From: Microbacterium forte
GTDB lineage: Bacteria > Actinomycetota > Actinomycetes > Actinomycetales > Microbacteriaceae
NCBI RefSeq assembly: GCF_031885415.1
Contig: NZ_CP116871.1
Location: forward strand, 2,418,001 to 2,482,000
Direction: 5' to 3'
Length of the DNA stretch: 64,000 nt
Under the pieces are notes generated by a model. It saw only the letters and a program-made list of their open reading frames with translations, was not told the DNA's origin and made no database searches. The position numbers and the translations under genes are program-made. Below, in pieces: positions 3,518-63,606 of this stretch; within the stretch, counting starts at the first letter, position 1; every line of letters starts with the position of its first letter.

Positions 3518-4705
3518 TCATGCGGCGACGGTCTGGAGGGTGCCGGTCGCTGCGGGCGACGGCCGCCGGGCCGCGACGACGGCGATCACCATGACGATCA
3601 GAGCGGATGCCGTGATCGCGGCGCCGATCCAGATGGGCGAGGTGTAGCCGAGCCCCGCCGAGATGCCGAGGCCCCCCGCCCAGGCGCCGAGGGCGTTGCC
3701 GACGTTGAACGCGCCGATGTTGGCGCCGGAGGCGAGAGTCGGTGCTCCGCCGGCGTAGTGCATGATGCGGCTCTGCAACGCGGGCACCGTGCCGAATCCG
3801 AACGCGCCCATCAGCACGAGGATCGCCGTCGTCACGGGCTGCGACCAGGCGAAGAACCCGAACAGCACGAGCACGACCACCAGGGCCGAGATGAAGATGA
3901 GGAGGGTGCGGTCGATCGAGCGGTCGGCCAGGCGCCCGCCGATCCCGTTGCCCGCCACGAGCCCGACGCCGAACAGCACGAGCAGCCACGGCACGGCGGT
4001 GTCGGCGAATCCGGTGACGTCGGTGAGCGTGTAGGCGATGTACGTGAAGGCGCCGAACATCCCGCCGAACGCGAGGGCTGTGACGATGAGCGAGAGCCAC
4101 ACCTGACCCGATCGGAAGGCACGGAGTTCGCTGCGCAGACTCACCTGCGCACCGGCCGACCTCGGGGCGGTGACGAGCAGCGCGATGCCGGCGAAGGCGA
4201 CGACGCCGATGACCGAGATCACCCAGAACGTCGAGCGCCAGCCGAACTGCTGTCCGAGGAACGTGCCGAAGGGAACGCCGAACACGTTGGCCGCCGTGAG
4301 GCCGGTGAACATGATCGCGATCGCCCTGGCCTTCTTCTCGGGCGCGACGAGCTCGGCCGCGACGACCGATCCGATGCCGAAGAACGCGCCGTGGCACAGG
4401 GCGGCGATGATGCGGCCGATCATGGCCACCGAGTAGTCAGGGGCGAGGGCCGTGATCGCGTTGCCCACGATGAACAGCACGACGAGGCCGAGCAGCACGG
4501 GTTTGCGCGGCAGGCGCGTGGTGGCGGCGGTGAGGCCGAGGGCGCCGACGACGACGCTCAGCGCGTAACCCGAGATCAGCCAGCCGGCCGTGGCCTCGGT
4601 GACGCCGAAGTCGGTCGCGACCTCGGGGAGCAGGCCCATGATCACGAACTCCGTGAGTCCGATCCCGAAGGCGCCGATGGCGAGTGCGATGAGTCCGAGT
4701 GGCAT
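3518..4705 (-). CDS. MFS drug/metabolite efflux transporter, DHA1 family
   Basis: A 395-residue inner-membrane protein with about 12 hydrophobic segments. The opening GLIALAIGAFGIGLTEFV and the motif GRLADRSIDR between helices are typical of the AraJ/YdhP branch of DHA1 transporters, which export sugars, drugs or other small molecules using the proton gradient. The ATG at 4705 gives the usual N-terminus. It leads an apparent two-gene unit with the aldo/keto reductase and shares a 113-bp divergent region with a MarR gene. That region holds a perfect 10-bp inverted repeat, which suggests repression by that regulator and induction by a toxic substrate. Confidence 0.88.
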   Translation of the reverse strand: MPLGLIALAIGAFGIGLTEFVIMGLLPEVATDFGVTEATAGWLISGYALSVVVGALGLTAATTRLPRKPVLLGLVVLFIVGNAITALAPDYSVAMIGRIIAALCHGAFFGIGSVVAAELVAPEKKARAIAIMFTGLTAANVFGVPFGTFLGQQFGWRSTFWVISVIGVVAFAGIALLVTAPRSAGAQVSLRSELRAFRSGQVWLSLIVTALAFGGMFGAFTYIAYTLTDVTGFADTAVPWLLVLFGVGLVAGNGIGGRLADRSIDRTLLIFISALVVVLVLFGFFAWSQPVTTAILVLMGAFGFGTVPALQSRIMHYAGGAPTLASGANIGAFNVGNALGAWAGGLGISAGLGYTSPIWIGAAITASALIVMVIAVVAARRPSPAATGTLQTVAA

Positions 4706-7129: not shown

Positions 7130-8100
7130 GATGCCTTCTCGACTCGTTCGCGCTGCAGCCGGAAATTGATCACGCTGACGATCGCGAGCGCGAGGAACAG
7201 GATGTAGCTCATGGCGGCAGCCGGTGCCATGTTGTTCTGCGAGAGACCCTGGTCGGCGATGTACATGATCACCGTCCGCGTCTCGGTGCCCGGGCCGCCC
7301 TTCGTGAGGAGGTAGGACTGGCCGAACATGTTCGCCGACGCGAGGATCGTGGTCGTGGTGATGAAGGTCATCACCGGACGGAGTCCTGGAAGGGTGACGC
7401 TCGAGAACTTCCGCATCGCTCCGGCGCCGTCGAGCGCGGCCGCTTCATAGAGGTCGCCGTTGATGCCCTTGAGGCCGGCCAGGAAGATGATCGTGTTGAG
7501 TCCCATGGTCCACCAGACGGTGACGCCGACGATGGAGACCCAGACCCAGGGGACGTCGACCGTCCACGGGATGTCCGAGGGGAGCCCGACCACGCCGAGC
7601 AGGTGGTTGAGGATGCCCGACTGCGTGTCGAAGATGTAGCCCCAGATCACGCCGATGACCGCGACGCCGAGCACATACGGCGCGAAGAAGATCGTGCGGA
7701 ACGTCGTGGCCGCGCGGATGCGCTGGTTCAGCAGGATCGCCACGAGAAGCGGGATGACGACGAGGAACGGCACGCTGATCACGATGAAGATCCCGGTGAC
7801 GCTCATCGACTTCCAGAAGTCGCTGGAGAGCACGTTGCCCGGGGTGAACAGATCGATGTAGTTCTGGAATCCGACGAACTCCTGCACGTCGCGGAACGGG
7901 CTCCAGTTGGTGAGGCTCATCCAGATGCCGAAGATCCCTGGGCCGGCGACGAAAGTCAGGAAGAGCACGAGGAACGGAGCGAGGAACAGATACGCGGTGA
8001 GCGTCTTGCGCCGAGAGGATGCGGAGCCCGCAGGTCTGCGCGGGTGTCGCCCCCCAGCGCTGCTGCGCTGGGGGGCGACGAGGGTGGCTGTCTCAGTCAC
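7126..8100 (-). CDS. ABC sugar transporter permease, MalF/UgpA-like
   Basis: A 324-residue inner-membrane protein with a basic cytoplasmic N-terminus and six helices after residue 30. The EAA loop contains YEAAALDGAGAMRKFSSVTL. It pairs with the MalG-like permease to form the channel of a CUT1 sugar importer. It starts with GTG and overlaps the end of the solute-binding protein gene by 8 bp (GTGACTGA shared in two frames), which indicates translational coupling. No substrate can be assigned from this subunit alone; the flanking GH43 and GH2 enzymes suggest an arabinose-, galactose- or xylose-containing oligosaccharide. Confidence 0.92.
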   Translation of the reverse strand: MTETATLVAPQRSSAGGRHPRRPAGSASSRRKTLTAYLFLAPFLVLFLTFVAGPGIFGIWMSLTNWSPFRDVQEFVGFQNYIDLFTPGNVLSSDFWKSMSVTGIFIVISVPFLVVIPLLVAILLNQRIRAATTFRTIFFAPYVLGVAVIGVIWGYIFDTQSGILNHLLGVVGLPSDIPWTVDVPWVWVSIVGVTVWWTMGLNTIIFLAGLKGINGDLYEAAALDGAGAMRKFSSVTLPGLRPVMTFITTTTILASANMFGQSYLLTKGGPGTETRTVIMYIADQGLSQNNMAPAAAMSYILFLALAIVSVINFRLQRERVEKAS

Positions 8101-9403
8101 CGTACTTGGCCCGGTTCTGCTCGAGGATCTGATCGGCCTTGGCCGCGGCGTCGTCGAGCGCGGTCTTCGGATCCTTCTTGCCGGTGAGGGCCTCGTTCAG
8201 CGCGAGGGTGATCTGCGCGTTGACCTCGGAGATCCCGGGCGAGACCGTCTCGTAGTGGGCGTACTCCAGCTGCTCCATGAAGGGGGCGAGGTTGGGGTAG
8301 GTCGAGAGCAGCTCCGGGTCTTCGCGCACCGAGTTCGCGGCAGGCAGCTCGCCGGTCTCGGCCCATCCGAGGGAGTTGTCGTTCATCCACTTCACGAAGA
8401 CCGATGCGGCCGCCGTCTCGTTCGCGTCCTGGCCCTTGTTGGCCGGGAACACCCAGTGGGTCGAGCTCGACCACACGGCCTTCTCGTCGCCGATCTGCGG
8501 CACGGGTGCCGGCGCCCAGTCGAGGTCGTCGAAGGCGGTGTTCGTCGTCTGCCAGACGCCGTTCCAGTTGAATGCGGTGTCGCCAGCGATGAGCGCCTTG
8601 ATGTTGCCGTCCTGTGCGACGTTCGCGGGGCTGTACCCCTTGTCGACCATGTCGGTCATCCAGGTGAGGGCCTTCACGCCCGCCTCTGAATTGAACGTGG
8701 CCTCGGTGACGTCGTCGTTGTAGAGGTCTCCACCGAACTGCCAGATCAGGCTCTGGAACTCGAACGTGCCGGTGAAGACGTAGCCGTCGACCCACTCGCC
8801 CTGGACTCCCGCACCCTTCAGCGCGTCGAGTGCGGCCAGATACGACGCCTCGTCGGTGGGGATCTCGCTGATGCCGGCCTTCGCGAGCACCGACTTGTTG
8901 GTGAACAGGCCCAGCGGCGTCACGCTCCACGGCACCGCGTACTGGGTGTCCTGGTAGTTGCCCTTGTCGAAGACGGTGGGCGGGAAGTCCTCCGCCGCAT
9001 ATCCGAGCCCGTCGATGATCTCGCCGGAGTCGAGCAGCAGGTTCTGCGCCGCATACGTGGCCAGGTCGTCTCCGTGCAGCACGGCGACGTCCGGCCCCTT
9101 GCCCGCCTTGATGGCGAGCGGCATCTTCGCCGTGATGTCCGCCCACTCCTGCGGGACGGCCTTCACCGTGATGTTGTCGTGCTCCGCGTTGAACTCCTTG
9201 ATGAGCTCGGGGACGATCTTGGGGGCTGCTCCACCCGTCCAGCCGTGCCAGAAGGTGATCTCGACATCGGGGCCGGTGTACTCCCCGTCGCCGGAGACGC
9301 CGCCCCCACCGGTGCCGGCCGACGCCGCGCACCCTGATGCCGTAATGCCGATGGCGAGTGCGATGCCTGCACCTATCGCTCGGCGAGCCCATGGACTGTT
9401 CAT
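8093..9403 (-). CDS. Extracellular sugar-binding lipoprotein of an ABC importer
   Basis: A 436-residue solute-binding protein of the family-1 type. The signal peptide ends with the lipobox ASGC near residue 24, followed by a Gly/Ser linker. The mature part begins VEITFWHGWTGG, the characteristic first strand of this family. It delivers a captured sugar to the two downstream permeases. The ATG at 9403 has AAAGGAGAG about 7 nt upstream; a longer in-frame start at 9436 lacks this. It is the first gene of the importer operon and is preceded by a TTGACA/TAAATT promoter with a LacI-type operator lying across it. Confidence 0.92.
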   Translation of the reverse strand: MNSPWARRAIGAGIALAIGITASGCAASAGTGGGGVSGDGEYTGPDVEITFWHGWTGGAAPKIVPELIKEFNAEHDNITVKAVPQEWADITAKMPLAIKAGKGPDVAVLHGDDLATYAAQNLLLDSGEIIDGLGYAAEDFPPTVFDKGNYQDTQYAVPWSVTPLGLFTNKSVLAKAGISEIPTDEASYLAALDALKGAGVQGEWVDGYVFTGTFEFQSLIWQFGGDLYNDDVTEATFNSEAGVKALTWMTDMVDKGYSPANVAQDGNIKALIAGDTAFNWNGVWQTTNTAFDDLDWAPAPVPQIGDEKAVWSSSTHWVFPANKGQDANETAAASVFVKWMNDNSLGWAETGELPAANSVREDPELLSTYPNLAPFMEQLEYAHYETVSPGISEVNAQITLALNEALTGKKDPKTALDDAAAKADQILEQNRAKYGD

Positions 9404-58287: not shown

Positions 58288-58305
58288 AACTGTCTCAACA
58301 CAGTG

Positions 58306-58355
58306 TGGAGCCTAGGAGATTCGAACTCCTGACATCCTGCTTGCAAAGCAGGCGC
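58306..58355 (-). other. Attachment site: displaced 3' portion of tRNA-Ala (TGC)
   Basis: On the minus strand this gives GCGCCTGCTTTGCAAGCAGG (D-stem end and anticodon arm, anticodon TGC), a normal variable loop, T-arm AGGAGTTCGAATCTCCT and acceptor 3' strand AGGCTCC plus A. Beyond 58355 the sequence no longer fits a tRNA-Ala 5' half: the D-arm lacks the GG and A14, and T8 and the first acceptor pair are lost. It is therefore an att site, with the intact tRNA expected beyond the right edge next to the integrase. Confidence 0.75.
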
Positions 58356-58370
58356 TACGGCTCAACGAGA

Positions 58371-58388
58371 GGCCCGAACGCCCGAACG
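58371..58388. repeat. Tandem 8-bp repeat next to the att site
   Basis: CCCGAACG occurs twice head to tail, 16-18 bp inside the element edge. It may be an arm-type integrase or excisionase site. Confidence 0.4.
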
Positions 58389-58419: not shown

Positions 58420-58968
58420 ATGGGGGAAACACTCAACGAGGAGCCAGACGCCGAGATCGACTGGGACGCTATCATCGACCCGAAAACCGGCTGGCTGCGG
58501 CCTGGAACGCATGAGGTCGAGATAGAGGAGTTGCAGGAAGAGTTTGTCGCCAAGCCACGCGACCCTCTACGCGATCACACATGGACCGCGTTTCTCGCAC
58601 TGCTCTACCAAACTAAGGCGCTCTACCCGAGCGGACGCATGTTCCTCGCCGGAACTTTCGTATCTCGCCAGGTGAGCCCTTTGGACATTCTGTCCGTCGT
58701 CCTCGTGCCCGATGAGCCCACGACGGTTGAGGACTGGATCGAAGCAGAGTGGGATCGCTTCTATCAGCACATCTCGCTCTACGACGTGATCCTGGGGAGC
58801 ATCGGTCCCACTTACTTGCCTGTTCTCCATCCGTTCGGTGGTCGAATCGAGGTCATCGTCTGCCACCCCGACGAAGCCGACGACGTAGTGTCCTGGATAG
58901 GTGCTGTACTGCTAGGAGACGGTCGGGAAATCCCCGGCGCGCGAGGCGTGGCGGAGGTGATCTGGTGA
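58420..58968 (+). CDS. Cargo gene 1: DUF6932-like, degenerate nucleotidyltransferase
   Basis: A 182-residue acidic protein. The N-terminal segment GWLRPGTHEVEIEELQEEFV and the following helices, then FLAGTFVSRQVSPLDILSVV, follow the layout of DUF6932 proteins. In those a GSFVT...P-DiD pattern marks a minimal nucleotidyltransferase site. Here the second Asp of the D-x-D pair is replaced (PLDIL), so the transferase may be inactive or changed. It may modify or guard a target, as MNT-type antitoxins do. It is coupled to cargo gene 2 by a 4-bp overlap and opens a three-gene operon at the element edge. Confidence 0.6.
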   Translation: MGETLNEEPDAEIDWDAIIDPKTGWLRPGTHEVEIEELQEEFVAKPRDPLRDHTWTAFLALLYQTKALYPSGRMFLAGTFVSRQVSPLDILSVVLVPDEPTTVEDWIEAEWDRFYQHISLYDVILGSIGPTYLPVLHPFGGRIEVIVCHPDEADDVVSWIGAVLLGDGREIPGARGVAEVIW

Positions 58969-59852
58969 TCCGCGATGACATTGACCGCGCGCTCGGCAGG
59001 ATCGAGGGTGACACTCGTCTGGCGATGCTCAGGCGCACCGGCCTCATGGTGCTCCGTGAGAGATTCGCGCCGTCGGCCCCGCCCTTGCGCGTTCAGGTCA
59101 GCGAAGATCTGTCGGTGAGTGCGCTCGCGCATCTCACTCACGCCATTCAAAGAGCCACAACCCTGTCCGCGAAGGCACTTCTAGAGCCGCAGTCGGATTC
59201 GATTGTCCTAGGCAAGCACATCCGAGAAATGACGCCATTGGTGCCCCGGCTCCAGACGGGCCACATGCTCCTGTTCGGATTTCCGGAGCCATCGGTTAGC
59301 GCCAACCACCTTGACTTCCAGCGGCCCGAGCACCTCGCGGAGCGCGCTGTGCGCGAGTTCCTCTCCGTACTCCCGAGGGATGCCAGCGACACCGATTCGC
59401 TTGAGGCATTGCCAGCGCGCCGGTCTCAGTTCCGCGCCGCAGTCTCCGCTGTCGCCCGCGCAGTGTCCGACACGTCCTCGTCGCTATCTTTCAGCCTGCG
59501 CGATGATCGCGGCGAAGAGTCCGAGGAGGCCGTGCTCACATCAGAGCAGACAAGACGAGTACCGGAGGTCCTCAAGGACAGCCGGATTGATTCGACCCCG
59601 CTCACCGTGGAGGGGCTCATGGACGGGATGCGCACCCAGCGACGCGTGTTCTTCATTCTGGAGAATGAGACAGGTAAGGAGTACAAGGGAGCGATCGAGG
59701 AGCACCAACTGGAAGACGTGCGGGACGCGATCAACACTCAGGTACGGGCGCGACTGATCAAGGCAGTCCAGGTACGAGCGGACGGTTCACAGGGTCGCCC
59801 GTCTTACAGGCTGATCGGGCTAGATCCCCGTCCCGAGACGCTCGCGGAGTAG
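58965..59852 (+). CDS. Cargo gene 2: unrecognised 295-residue protein
   Basis: A 295-residue soluble protein of no family I know. Residues 1-60 are a charged helical region. The middle (about 60-190) is largely helical, with SALAHLTHAIQRATTL, FGFPEPSVSANHLDF and a helix from QFRAAVSAVARAVSDT. After an acidic linker (about 195-215) a compact C-terminal domain (about 220-290) has VEGLMDGMRTQRRVFFILEN and KAVQVRADGSQGRPSYRL, alternating strands and helices like a small binding domain. It starts with GTG in the stop of gene 1 (GTGA). A role as effector or target-recognition partner is inference only. Confidence 0.65.
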   Translation: MIRDDIDRALGRIEGDTRLAMLRRTGLMVLRERFAPSAPPLRVQVSEDLSVSALAHLTHAIQRATTLSAKALLEPQSDSIVLGKHIREMTPLVPRLQTGHMLLFGFPEPSVSANHLDFQRPEHLAERAVREFLSVLPRDASDTDSLEALPARRSQFRAAVSAVARAVSDTSSSLSFSLRDDRGEESEEAVLTSEQTRRVPEVLKDSRIDSTPLTVEGLMDGMRTQRRVFFILENETGKEYKGAIEEHQLEDVRDAINTQVRARLIKAVQVRADGSQGRPSYRLIGLDPRPETLAE

Positions 59853-59856
59853 GCCC

Positions 59857-60432
59857 TTGGATCCTATGCTCCTGGCCGGCCTCATCGTCAACGGCGGAGT
59901 ATTCGTTGCCTCAGCAGGTGCCGCCGCCGTCGCCTGGTGGCAAGCGATCGAAGCATCGAAGTCGCGGGACTCGGCGCTCGCCGCACAACAGTCCGCATTG
60001 TTGGCATGGCAGGAAGGAGCGTCCGCGCTCGTCCGCGCGAACGAGATCTCGGCCGGAGCTTTGCGCGCCCCATTCGCTTCACGGCTGCAACAGATGTCAA
60101 ACGACGTACTCTCTCAGCGTCTAGGCGGCGCTAACGCGGACACTATTTTTCAGATCATCGGTGAGAGACACACGCCGGGTCTTTCCCCACTTCAGTTAGC
60201 GACAAACGAGCGGACCGCTGGGAAGTTCTCACGCTGGCTCTCGACCTACGCCCGAACAGTGGATGTCTCGTCACCCTCGGCGATTATGTCCGCATTGTCA
60301 TTGGTCGATGCTCGAGTCCGAGGGTGGATCCGGGACCCTGAGGCCACGATGGCCGAGATTCGGGACGAGCCCGGCGTGCTCAACGACCTCCCGATCCTCG
60401 ATCCCGATCTGCACGACTACCGAGTTCCCTGA
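59857..60432 (+). CDS. Cargo gene 3: membrane-anchored protein
   Basis: A 191-residue protein with one N-terminal transmembrane helix (LLAGLIVNGGVFVASAGAAA, about 4-23). An amphipathic segment rich in Gln and Ala (SRDSALAAQQSALLAWQEGA), probably a coiled coil, follows, then a mixed helical cytoplasmic part ending DLHDYRVP. Start is TTG at 59857, 4 bp after the stop of gene 2, or ATG at 59866. No family is recognised. The membrane anchor together with two soluble partners is a layout often seen in abortive-infection systems, but nothing in this protein proves that. Confidence 0.6.
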   Translation: MDPMLLAGLIVNGGVFVASAGAAAVAWWQAIEASKSRDSALAAQQSALLAWQEGASALVRANEISAGALRAPFASRLQQMSNDVLSQRLGGANADTIFQIIGERHTPGLSPLQLATNERTAGKFSRWLSTYARTVDVSSPSAIMSALSLVDARVRGWIRDPEATMAEIRDEPGVLNDLPILDPDLHDYRVP

Positions 60433-60528: not shown

Positions 60529-60696
60529 ATGGGATTCAAGGACGCTGCACTCCCCATGAAGGAGCAAGCGCTCGCGAAGCGGACGGCCGAGCTCGTGGGA
60601 GAGCAGATGCGCCGTGCGCTCGCGGAGGACAGACTGATCCGCGCGGGCAAGATCCCCGAGCCCTTCACTCCCGAGTCGCTCGCTTCGGGATCGTAG
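60529..60696 (+). CDS. Small hypothetical protein (55 residues)
   Basis: A 55-residue charged, largely helical protein starting MGFKDAALPMKEQALAKRTA with Glu/Arg-rich heptad-like spacing, ending PEPFTPESLASGS. AGAAGGA stands 8-9 nt before the ATG, a good ribosome site. It faces the minus-strand block of the element and could be a small regulator or satellite factor. The gap before it (60433-60528) holds no other gene. Confidence 0.6.
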   Translation: MGFKDAALPMKEQALAKRTAELVGEQMRRALAEDRLIRAGKIPEPFTPESLASGS

Positions 60697-60778
60697 GTGA
60701 TCGTTCCCCGTTCGCGATGGACGCGACGACTGCGCGCCCCGGCATCCGCAGACACCGGGGCGCTCAGTCCGGGTCAGG

Positions 60779-61468
60779 TCAGACCACAACCGCGTCGGCG
60801 GTGAAGTCCCCGCGCTCCTGCTCCCGATCCGAGCGTCGGAGAGCCTCCCCGAGTCCGTCGATCTCCGCCGCCTGTGCCTCCCGGTATCCGGCCTCGTCCG
60901 CGCGGTAGAGGGCCGTCCACGCTCCTACCGTTACGGGGCCGTCGAGCGCTTCCATCATCACTCGCGACCAGGCGGCATCCGGGGCGACGGCCTCCTCCTC
61001 TCTGATCCGCTCGACGGCTGGCTCGTAGCCGAGGGCGGCGAGACGATCGAAAGCGAGTGCCTCGAACTCAGCGACGATGTGCGCGCCCTCCGATGAGGCG
61101 AGCACCTCCGGGAGCGTCTCCAGACTGTCGAGTATTGCCCCGAGCCTGGCCGGGGATGCCCCGGTAATGATCTGGTCCAGGCGGCGACCGGCGTTCTGGA
61201 GAGCCTGGATCTTCTCCCGCTCGCGGGCCGCGACAGCGAGAGTGTCCGCGGTGGTCGGGCGGAGGCCGTCCAAGACCTCTGCCCGGGTGGGACCCGTGAT
61301 CTCCGGGACGGTGGGAATGCGTGCGGCAAGCGCGGAACGAGCCTGCTGGATTCCCTGGCGCTGGGCGCGTGCGTTCGCCTCGGGGGTCTTGTCCCGGTCC
61401 TGTTGGGAAAGTGCGGTGTGCGCGTCTCGAACGAACGTGGCGAATGCGGTGGCGTGGGCGGTGGTCAT
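60779..61468 (-). CDS. Element-encoded hypothetical protein (229 residues)
   Basis: A 229-residue soluble, almost entirely helical protein with many Ala, Arg and Glu. Long helices around EREKIQALQNAGRRLDQII and HIVAEFEALAFDRLAALGY suggest a coiled-coil or scaffold-like protein. No family is recognised. The ATG at 61468 has CAGGAGATC 6-7 nt upstream; a longer start would run through the direct-repeat region. It is the most downstream gene of the element's minus-strand block. By position in similar satellites it could be a packaging-interference or morphogenesis factor, which is inference. Confidence 0.65.
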   Translation of the reverse strand: MTTAHATAFATFVRDAHTALSQQDRDKTPEANARAQRQGIQQARSALAARIPTVPEITGPTRAEVLDGLRPTTADTLAVAAREREKIQALQNAGRRLDQIITGASPARLGAILDSLETLPEVLASSEGAHIVAEFEALAFDRLAALGYEPAVERIREEEAVAPDAAWSRVMMEALDGPVTVGAWTALYRADEAGYREAQAAEIDGLGEALRRSDREQERGDFTADAVVV

Positions 61469-61483
61469 GGTGATCTCCTGATC

Positions 61484-61530
61484 TGTGGATAGAGGTGGGG
61501 ATATGTGGATAGATATACGCATATCGTGGG
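61484..61530. other. Two DnaA-box-like direct repeats in an AT-rich patch
   Basis: TGTGGATAGA occurs at 61484-61493 and 61504-61513, 20 bp apart; the complement holds TATCCACA, the DnaA core. AT-rich GATATACGCATATC follows. A possible replication origin of the element. Confidence 0.5.
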
Positions 61531-61561: not shown

Positions 61562-62071
61562 TCAGACGCCTCCTGGGCTCGTCTGCCGCGAGTTCTCGGC
61601 GTGCAGGGATACAGGGGGCGTCTTGGCGTCCTGATCCGGCAGATCGTCGTCCAGAGCTTCGTCCTCCTCGCGCACCTTCCCGAGCCATGCGCCGAGGACC
61701 GCCGTGATCTCCGCGATGCCAGTGTCAGGCTGAGGCTCGTAGAGGCCGAGCAACTTCGCACGGTGATCCATGATCCGGATGAGCCGGTCGATCGCACCGA
61801 GATTGCCGTGGACGATCTTGTCGGCAAGGGATCGCTGAGCCAGGTCTAGGCGCTCGAGTTCGATCTCGCGGAGTTGGATCGCCGCCTCCCTCGGGATCGC
61901 CGCGAGCGCGCGATCGATCGCCTTCTTGGCAGCACTCCGGTGCTGGTAGCCGAGTTCGCGGGCGATCCGCTCGTGCGAGTAGCCGAGGAGCCGCAGATCC
62001 AGCGCCTTCGCCTCTCGCGCCCGAGCCTCCGCCCGAATCTGGGTTTGGGTCTTGCCTTTGGTGGTCGTCAT
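61562..62071 (-). CDS. HTH protein resembling a small terminase subunit
   Basis: A 169-residue protein. A homeodomain-like HTH lies at about 25-55 (LDLRLLGYSHERIARELGY, then HRSAAKKAIDRAL). A helical region follows with ELERLDLAQRSLADKIVHGN and LGAIDRLIRIMDHRAKLLGL, a pattern found in actinobacterial phage proteins beside terminase genes and similar to small terminase DNA-binding subunits. The C-terminus is acidic (REEDEALDDDLPDQD). In a phage satellite, such a protein would direct helper packaging to element DNA. It overlaps the upstream gene by 4 bp. Confidence 0.6.
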   Translation of the reverse strand: MTTTKGKTQTQIRAEARAREAKALDLRLLGYSHERIARELGYQHRSAAKKAIDRALAAIPREAAIQLREIELERLDLAQRSLADKIVHGNLGAIDRLIRIMDHRAKLLGLYEPQPDTGIAEITAVLGAWLGKVREEDEALDDDLPDQDAKTPPVSLHAENSRQTSPGGV

Positions 62072-62343
62072 GGCTGAACCTCCGATGTGTCTTGCTCCAT
62101 GTGTGTCTTGCTCCCGGGCTCGGTCCGGGCGATCTCCTCCAAGCGGAGACGGTGGGTGCGGGCCTCGACCCGGTACGCCGCCGCCTCGGCGCGGAGCGCT
62201 GAGCAGTAGTCGCGGATCGCTTCGCGGACCCAGGCCGGGGAGGCGTCCATCGCCTTCTGGAACGCGGGCGTCCTTTGCTGGCGGTGACGGCTGGCATCCC
62301 GGACGGGCGCGTAGGCGTCGTCGGTACGGCGGGGGAGGTTCAT
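62068..62343 (-). CDS. Element-encoded hypothetical protein (91 residues)
   Basis: A 91-residue basic, helical protein containing QKAMDASPAWVREAIRDYCS and a long helix with AAAYRVEARTHRLRLEEIAR. It is unrecognised. The start overlaps the stop of the replication protein gene (ATGA), and its own stop overlaps the small-terminase-like gene in the same way, so all three are translated in sequence. Longer in-frame starts would overlap the upstream gene far more. Confidence 0.65.
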   Translation of the reverse strand: MNLPRRTDDAYAPVRDASRHRQQRTPAFQKAMDASPAWVREAIRDYCSALRAEAAAYRVEARTHRLRLEEIARTEPGSKTHMEQDTSEVQP

Positions 62344-63074
62344 GCTTCGACCGCCTTCCGTGCGGCGTGGGCTTGCCCCTCGGGCGTCTCCAGCCACGCA
62401 AGGTACTCCGCCGAGGGGCCTGTGATCTTGATCAGTTCCCAGCGCTTCTCGCGGAGCCACTTGTCGGCCTTCGGCACGTACTTGGGATCGGTCGTCGGGA
62501 TCCAGGCTCGGAGACGGGCAATGACATCGGCGGGCGGTGGGATCTCCTCCCAGGCCGCTCGTGTGGGCTTCTTCGCTCCTCGGCGGTGAGCCGGGTAGAG
62601 ATCCCAGAACTGTTCGAACTCATCGGCATCGGCCAGGGGCGGAGCCCCCTTGAAAGAGTTCTCTTCTAGATCGTCACCAGATTCTGGGGACTGAGGCACC
62701 AGATTCTGGGGAGTGCCCACCAGATTCTGGGGACTGAGATCTCCCGGTCCCCGATTATTGGTCACCAGATTCTGTGTACTGAGCGCCTCGGGGATCATGC
62801 CGACGCGGTACAGGTGGGGTCGGTTGATCCCGCGCTCATGGATCGCCACGACGCCCGCGCCGACGAGTCGCTTGATCGACGCCTCGGCGGTCGTCGCGGA
62901 CCTCATCAGCGCAAGCCGCGCAATCGTCGCCATGCTGACGCGGCGGGTGATCCCGCTCCTCCAGTCACACTCGTGGAGGAGCGCGGCGTAGACGCCGAGA
63001 TCCGCGCTCTGGAGTCCGAGCACGGAGCCGTGCTCTTGGAGCCAGTGCGGGATCCGTGACGTGTGCCCGCTCAT
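62340..63074 (-). CDS. Winged-helix replication initiation-like protein
   Basis: A 244-residue protein. The N-terminal 100 residues form a winged helix as in phage and plasmid replication initiators and DnaD-like proteins (SADLGVYAALLHECDW, MATIARLALMRSATTAEASI, LVGAGVVAIHERGI). A linker contains SPQNLV- and TPQNLV-type repeats. The C-terminal part (FEQFWDLYPAHRRGAKKPT, then YVPKADKWLREKRWE) is the helical domain found C-terminal in phage replication proteins. The DNA encoding the linker has four iteron-like repeats. It overlaps both neighbours by 4 bp. Confidence 0.72.
   Translation of the reverse strand: MSGHTSRIPHWLQEHGSVLGLQSADLGVYAALLHECDWRSGITRRVSMATIARLALMRSATTAEASIKRLVGAGVVAIHERGINRPHLYRVGMIPEALSTQNLVTNNRGPGDLSPQNLVGTPQNLVPQSPESGDDLEENSFKGAPPLADADEFEQFWDLYPAHRRGAKKPTRAAWEEIPPPADVIARLRAWIPTTDPKYVPKADKWLREKRWELIKITGPSAEYLAWLETPEGQAHAARKAVEA
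62675..62783. repeat. Four iteron-like direct repeats inside the replication gene
   Basis: CACCAGATTCTGGGGACT or close variants begin at 62675, 62697, 62718 and 62763, spaced 22, 21 and 45 bp, about two helical turns or a multiple. They may be initiator binding sites, or only the codons of the QNLV protein repeat. Confidence 0.65.
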
Positions 63075-63289: not shown

Positions 63290-63511
63290 TCAGGCTTCTG
63301 CGCCAAGGAGGGCGCGGAGGCGAGGGACGGGGATGAGGATCCGCTTGCCGATCCGGAGGACGGGGATCTCTTCTCGCTTGATCGCCTCATAGGCACTCCA
63401 GGTGCCGATGCCGAGAATCTGCGCGGCTTCCGGGACGGTGCATGTCGCGCGCCCGTTGAGGTCCTCGATCGTTAGGACGTGCCGCTCGTTGGCGGGGGCA
63501 GTCGTGGTCAT
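63290..63511 (-). CDS. Excisionase/AlpA-like HTH protein
   Basis: A 73-residue DNA-binding protein with a MerR-like winged HTH of the excisionase (helix_turn_helix_17) type: CTVPEAAQILGIGTWSAYEA followed by IPVLRIGKRILIPVPRLRAL. It is the gene next to and divergent from the integrase, as expected for Xis or an AlpA-type activator that controls excision. The ATG at 63511 is preceded by GGAGCC and a 150-bp control region with several repeats. Confidence 0.85.
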   Translation of the reverse strand: MTTTAPANERHVLTIEDLNGRATCTVPEAAQILGIGTWSAYEAIKREEIPVLRIGKRILIPVPRLRALLGAEA

Positions 63512-63541
63512 CTCTTGGCTCCGTTCGTTCGGTTCGGACCG

Positions 63542-63575
63542 GTGTCCTGGGACCAGAATAGGGTGTCTTAGGGAC
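63542..63575. promoter_or_regulatory. Pair of operator-like direct repeats (xis/int control)
   Basis: GTGTCCTGGGAC (63542-63553) and GTGTCTTAGGGAC (63563-63575) are near copies about 21 bp apart, each with a GTCC/GGAC dyad. On the minus strand TATTCT between them may be the xis -10 box. Confidence 0.5.
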
Positions 63576-63606
63576 ATGGAAACCTCATCTGAACTGGGAT
63601 TTATAT

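Follow-up and report, generated by a model that had tools for sequence, protein, structure and literature searches.

The stretch of DNA analysed here, hereafter the window, comprises 64,000 nt of the Microbacterium forte genome (GCF_031885415.1, NZ_CP116871.1:2,418,001-2,482,000). Near its end lies a 6.7-kb integrative element delimited by a 68-bp perfect direct repeat (58289-58356 and 64988-65055, the second copy converted from L002, which is the same locus extended past the window end). Three genes, all on the + strand, occupy the distal att end of this element. Sequence comparisons indicate that the conserved unit is formed by genes 1 and 2, not by all three genes. The features at this end are:

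58289-58356, no strand: distal att copy with a 3′ tRNA-Ala fragment, part of the 68-bp repeat whose other copy lies outside the window
58420-58968, + strand: gene 1, 182 aa, DUF6932, predicted to fold like a nucleotidyltransferase, DxD motif degenerate
58965-59852, + strand: gene 2, 295 aa, GTG start, with a predicted C-terminal oligonucleotide/oligosaccharide-binding (OB) fold at about residues 209-293
59857-60432, + strand: gene 3, 191 aa, TTG start, with one N-terminal hydrophobic segment

Genes 1 and 2 overlap by 4 bp and gene 3 follows after a 4-bp spacing, in agreement with the coordinates given in a preliminary description of this DNA. That description also found the set less GC-rich than its host, and the values bear this out: the G+C fraction is 0.619, against 0.680 outside the element, and the lowest of 113 tiles of the same size is 0.644. 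It further placed the genes just inside the tRNA end of an integrative element. They do lie at an edge of such an element, but the tRNA-Ala call at 58305-58376 is the att copy carrying a tRNA fragment, not an intact tRNA; what was described as the ‘tRNA end’ is thus the att end distal to the integrase. The intact 74-nt tRNA-Ala (65004-65077), with tRNA-Ile behind it, is located at the opposite, integrase end and outside the window.

The product of gene 1 is assigned to DUF6932 by a profile match above the Pfam gathering score (PF22014, E 1.5e-10, 42.1 bits, cut-off 27), which spans just positions 6-90 of the 142 in the profile; the family named in the preliminary description thus stands with partial coverage. 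The match to the PDC-M63A model is weak and partial (E 8.7e-4, 17.3 bits); PDC is the naming for phage defence candidates of PADLOC, according to the part of the source available (PMC11514479). The predicted model of gene 1 has a predicted local distance difference test score of 80, and the best rows of the structural search are mostly nucleotidyltransferases. The DxD motif, located after GS/GG, is absent from 9/9 Microbacterium-type rows (the window, P0022-P0026 and L024-L026) and intact in 10/10 distinct other relatives of gene 1, as read by eye from the alignments. The second Asp is missing in gene 1, as had been noted earlier, and in every Microbacterium-type row aligned. Searches with gene 1 itself returned no relatives in viral contigs or phages, and scans of genome contigs for relatives of genes 1 and 2 returned none.

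For gene 2, the absence of a recognisable family was upheld in Pfam, PADLOC, PHROGs and NCBIfam at E<=10. Its predicted model terminates in an OB-fold, and a BFVD structural search gave three matches below 1e-3, each with a root-mean-square deviation above 15. Neither gene 1 nor gene 2 contains a hydrophobic window above 1.6 on the Kyte-Doolittle scale. A HEPN identity was considered for this partner and rejected, with no match in Pfam or NCBIfam and a model that has a C-terminal OB-fold. Gene 2 and its relative P0008 had no plasmid matches.

The association of genes 1 and 2 was examined in a survey of 366 Microbacterium genomes, the host genome included. Weak partial matches were excluded before counting (gene 2 in G145; gene 1 in G333, G306 and G353; gene 3 in G084, G147, G196, G198, G276, G307 and G346); a tblastn search of nine of these 11 loci with the window proteins, G147 and G198 being left out, found no cargo gene and one integrase match near G306. 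Full-length gene 2 occurs in 4/366 genomes and is immediately preceded by gene 1 in all four. Across the lineages with readable DNA (the four Microbacterium, the phiT46-1 group, L037 and L048), gene 2 follows a DUF6932 gene in 7/7, a count that leaves out the homologues P0004 and P0006-P0012, except for the P0006-type protein carried by L036/L037 (viral contigs of identical sequence), and that includes L048, itself found via DUF6932.

The settings of the pair differ among these genomes. In G149 it occupies a 4-kb remnant (L024:7037-11047) in which tblastn detected no integrase; the remnant is flanked by two perfect 53-nt att-core copies at tRNA-Ile/tRNA-Ala, a site of the kind used by the M. 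forte element. This remnant also contains a 304-aa open reading frame (ORF; 7724-8638), HIRAN-like by eye, between the remains of gene 3 and a partial relative of the element ORF at 60779-61522. In G051 the pair is near what we take to be a recombinase and a TnpC-like gene. The G331 pair is preceded by a 180-aa ORF (L026:9103-9645) with an RNRLAH motif and no Pfam match, which by eye we presume to be HEPN-like. The M. abscessus phiT46-1 group has the order helix-turn-helix (HTH)-like gene, DUF6932, gene 2 homologue, integrase, and the first of these is labelled ‘immunity repressor’ in several records. Among named phages, phiT46-1 (described in PMC9934374, consulted in part) has the closest relative of gene 2, its gene 37, with 26% identity over 96% coverage.

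Gene 3 behaves differently, and the preliminary proposal of a three-gene unit is not sustained. The membrane anchor suggested for its product agrees with a single hydrophobic stretch near residue 4 (Kyte-Doolittle value 1.82, seven windows above 1.6). The gene adjoins the pair in two of the four Microbacterium genomes that have it, M. forte and G149, and the G149 match is interrupted by a TAG codon that leaves a 134-aa ORF. In a tblastn search of 26 fetched loci, most with a DUF6932-partner pair, gene 3 was found in G149 and in none of the other 25. Two metagenome contigs, with lengths of 6837 and 4762, may carry gene 1 together with gene 3, as judged from matching lengths alone. The check proposed earlier, recurrence of the genes together, succeeds for genes 1 and 2 and largely fails for gene 3. 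Because of its patchy occurrence and the G149 interruption, we do not count gene 3 as core; by sequence comparison it is a loosely attached extra. The same data bear on the idea that these are passenger genes without joint function, gathered at the element end by an insertion accident. The decay of gene 3 would fit, as would the rarity of gene 2, which in an even sample of the phylum was found in 1/396 genomes, the host itself. Genes 1 and 2, however, remain coupled across genera and phage families, and we regard this explanation as very improbable; for the pair itself it is already disfavoured.

More diverged versions of the pair are found beyond these lineages. A DUF6932 gene with a downstream partner is present in Gordonia phage Holliday, on plasmids of M. 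kansasii, Rhodococcus gordoniae and R. qingshengii, and in the viral contigs L049, L052, L073 and L074; an M. avium match scores like the M. kansasii plasmid, although its locus was not opened. The partners in Holliday, the plasmids, L049, L052 and L073 have 316 to 362 aa, and that of L074 has 227 aa with a broken frame. Profile comparison indicates that gene 2 is homologous to these mycobacterial/Gordonia-type partners (hhalign probability 96.7, or 94.5 with fewer rows). In a search of 11 proteins with the gene 2 profile, single hidden Markov model scores were 2.9e-10 for R. qingshengii, 1.4e-6 for L049, 7.8e-5 for Holliday, 5e-4 for L052, 2e-3 for R. gordoniae and 0.1 for M. kansasii.

Three enterobacterial phages, mEpX1, PhiR30_1 and vB_EhrS_59, have cI followed by a DUF6932-type gene and then by the gene of a 310-aa partner. 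The mEpX1 genes match defence-candidate models strongly: mEpX1_042 matches PDC-M63A (1.8e-41) and mEpX1_041 matches six PDC-M63B models (best 7.5e-45). DNA resembling this pair is present in 18/5426 E. coli genomes. A relationship of gene 2 to PDC-M63B was sought and is not demonstrated at the sequence level. Gene 2, phiT46-1 gene 37, P0005 and P0011 have no match to the PDC-M63B models at E<=10, and mEpX1_041 has none to the gene 2 profile (E 0.4). By hhalign, gene 2 against M63B reaches 0.45% without the L083 protein and a suggestive 58.6% (E 9.5e-5) solely when L083 serves as a bridge; mycobacterial-type partners against the same set give 24.6%. All three profiles match the L083 protein: the M63B-type one at 8.4e-10, the mycobacterial-type one at 8e-4 and, weakly, that of gene 2 at 0.012. 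In Streptococcus satellite phage Javan304 (L056:about 4010-4500), an unannotated DUF6932-like open frame lies immediately 5′ of the annotated 294-aa JavanS304_0003, which has no match to the gene 2 profile (E 0.17) and none in PADLOC.

DUF6932 also occurs with other partners. PF22014 was detected in 14/296 genomes of the phylum sample, and at these 14 loci the following gene encodes an XRE-type HTH protein in four (L076, L077, L080 and L082), a gene 2/M63B-like protein in two (L083 and the M. forte locus, L085), and other or fused sequence in three (L078, L079 and L081); L084 is unresolved, and four (L086-L089) resemble ordinary MNT proteins. The four XRE-type partners are alike (‘MIKND/MIRSE...’), and with DUF6932 they appear to form a second, toxin-antitoxin-like module. 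Since such partners account for 4/14 sample loci, DUF6932 alone does not define the module described here, and a toxin-antitoxin or addiction role has to be weighed. Under that explanation the nucleotidyltransferase-fold protein would hold a toxic partner in check, or the roles would be swapped; the module would keep the element in the cell, and any anti-phage effect would be secondary. Nucleotidylating antitoxins need DxD, and that motif is lacking from all Microbacterium-type rows; gene 2 matches no toxin family and is modelled with an OB-fold. We consider this explanation rather unlikely.

The genomic neighbourhood of the pair was tallied by hand at 21 DUF6932-partner loci, with duplicates merged: G000, G149, G051, G331, the phiT46-1 group, L037, L048, L049, L052, L073, L074, Holliday, mEpX1, PhiR30_1, vB_EhrS_59, the M. 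kansasii, R. gordoniae and R. qingshengii plasmids, L070, Javan304 (where homology of the partner is not shown) and L083. The gene directly upstream encodes a repressor or HTH-like protein in 11/21, which is not a population estimate because the loci were found mainly via viral collections. The evidence is graded. Six have an annotated repressor or a Pfam HTH match above cut-off (the phiT46-1 group, by annotation only, Holliday, mEpX1, PhiR30_1, vB_EhrS_59 and L073), three have a sub-threshold HTH match (L048, L049 and L052), and two have no HTH match and are counted from position and a shared tail (L074 and the M. kansasii plasmid). At Javan304 and L037 an HTH protein is nearby but not adjoining. 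Six of the 21 have no upstream repressor or HTH gene, and L070 and L083 were not determined. No repressor is adjacent at the four Microbacterium loci, including the window pair, or on the two Rhodococcus plasmids. In phage lambda the order is cI-rexA-rexB, and in the lambdoid phages mEpX1, PhiR30_1 and vB_EhrS_59 the DUF6932 pair replaces rexAB.

The upstream proteins share a further feature. Six of eight from actinobacterial loci (those of L043, L041, L049, L052, L073 and L074) end in a similar C-terminal tail, approximately MTDEEL..AA..D..W..YI.T, and their N-terminal parts differ. Judged from sequence, this tail is a possible contact to the pair. The M. abscessus prophages prophi58-1 (L038) and phiT46-1 (L039) have the pair in common, and their upstream proteins differ N-terminally and agree elsewhere, as might result from exchange of the DNA-binding part. 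Adjacency to repressors in unrelated phages, the common tail and the OB-fold predicted for the partner would also suit an accessory role in lysogeny control, in which the pair, together with the repressor of its phage, would influence the choice between lysis and lysogeny and would not act on foreign phages; binding to early or replicating DNA of the phage is one conceivable means. The Microbacterium loci and Rhodococcus plasmids that lack an adjacent repressor argue against such a role, as do the defence pairs known from the same slot, and we think it quite improbable.

The preliminary assignment of the genes to mobile-element cargo fares well. Relatives of the pair occur on plasmids, in a satellite phage and close to a recombinase, and unrelated temperate phages have them next to integrases and to genes for repressors or HTH proteins. 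These placements support well a mobile-element accessory module. The remainder of the M. forte element is arranged as follows:

60530-60697, + strand: short ORF after gene 3, 55 aa, known from sequence only
60779-61522, - strand: element ORF, 247 aa, no Pfam, PHROG or NCBIfam match, with a partial relative near the pair in G149
61562-62401, - strand: phrog_645 protein, helix-turn-helix-like (E 1.8e-25)
62340-63074, - strand: replication-initiation-like protein, phrog_270 (E 6.3e-16)
63290-63577, - strand: excisionase-like HTH_17 protein (PF12728 E 4.6e-07; phrog_66 E 0.0011)
L002:7663-8928, window-equivalent 63662-64927, extending beyond the window end: phage-type integrase (PF00589 E 5.6e-11)

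With its att repeats, integrase, excisionase, replication genes and small size, this is an integrative, satellite-like element at tRNA-Ala. The family phrog_645 carries the label ‘Rnase E’; by eye, the 61562-62401 product may be a small-terminase-like protein of the satellite. The replication-initiation-like gene contains four copies of a 23-nt repeat with a CACCAGATTCTG core, spaced by 21-45, at 62673-62783 (L002:6674-6784), a possible iteron-type origin of the element.

We propose that genes 1 and 2 form a mobile, often repressor-coupled two-protein module for phage exclusion or abortive infection, here carried on a satellite-like element, and by analogy with known cassettes we give this reading an even chance. 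Since relatives in temperate phages often lie directly behind the lysogenic repressor, the pair would be made in the lysogen from that slot. The exclusion role is suggested by the genes that hold the same slot in lambda and CarolAnn. As for lambda rexAB and CarolAnn 43/44, the two proteins might form a standing complex, silent in its carrier, that halts the growth of a competing phage. The OB-fold partner would most likely touch nucleic acid, serving as sensor or effector under the control of the nucleotidyltransferase-fold protein; this control would act by nucleotide transfer where the active site is intact. Given the degenerate active site, the Microbacterium version would exert control by binding alone. 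A satellite-like element would gain by excluding competing phages.

A protective role is plausible by analogy, and one published result weighs against it: in the one E. coli strain concerned, deletion of PDC-M63AB had no effect on 10 phages, according to the part of the report consulted (PMC12409345), and this limits our confidence in exclusion. A literature search turned up no function for the DUF6932-partner pair and no paper naming DUF6932. A wider scenario, which we advance tentatively and with some doubt, is that DUF6932 and an OB-fold partner constitute one ancient exclusion module that lysogenic operons carry as cargo in ‘rex position’ and that has passed between lambdoid phages and actinophages. 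The C-terminal tail of the upstream repressor would be a third component in actinophages, and in Microbacterium satellites the module would have been freed from the repressor, with a catalytically dead nucleotidyltransferase. Under the exclusion hypothesis, an orphan operon becomes a testable case with tractable laboratory relatives, mEpX1 in E. coli K-12 and Holliday in Gordonia terrae: a pair of genes that repeatedly travels in the repressor operons of phages, both enterobacterial and actinobacterial.

Several known systems resemble the pair in part. The MNT/HEPN (MntA-HepT) layout consists of a small nucleotidyltransferase-fold protein and an adjacent partner. The window likewise has a protein predicted to fold like a nucleotidyltransferase with a neighbouring partner, but this partner is modelled with an OB-fold and matches no HEPN family, and DxD is absent. 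In phiT46-1, genes 39-38-37 place a gene 2 relative behind a DUF6932 gene and a gene that sister prophages label as immunity repressor, with 4-bp overlaps and beside an integrase; they differ from the window in an intact DxD, residence in a full prophage and the lack of gene 3. The earlier statement that no system of this make-up has been described requires qualification. The two-gene core shares the layout of the phage-carried PDC-M63AB (mEpX1 042-041), a DUF6932-type gene followed by a partner of ~300 aa on the same strand with a short overlap. Novelty is retained in part, in that gene 2 matches no M63B model; in addition, gene 1 is a weak M63A match, the active site is degenerate and there is no cI upstream.

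Lambda rexAB, CarolAnn gp44-gp43 and Sbash gp30-gp31 are also two-gene cassettes. The accounts consulted in part report that CarolAnn 43/44 is co-transcribed with the repressor, expressed in the lysogen and shown to defend (PMC6426606), and that Sbash 30/31 also defends (PMC6426596). The lambda and CarolAnn cassettes are located behind the repressor, in the slot where other phages have the DUF6932 pair; the window pair lacks this placement, which several of its phage relatives share by position. An M63B profile showed no similarity to lambda RexA (probability 0.05; gene 2 itself was not compared). The available parts of these sources give the three pairs a membrane partner with four transmembrane segments, whereas genes 1 and 2 of the window have no transmembrane-like segment. 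If the pair does exclude phages, it would represent a non-membrane counterpart to RexAB, with a pseudo-nucleotidyltransferase version on a satellite-like element.
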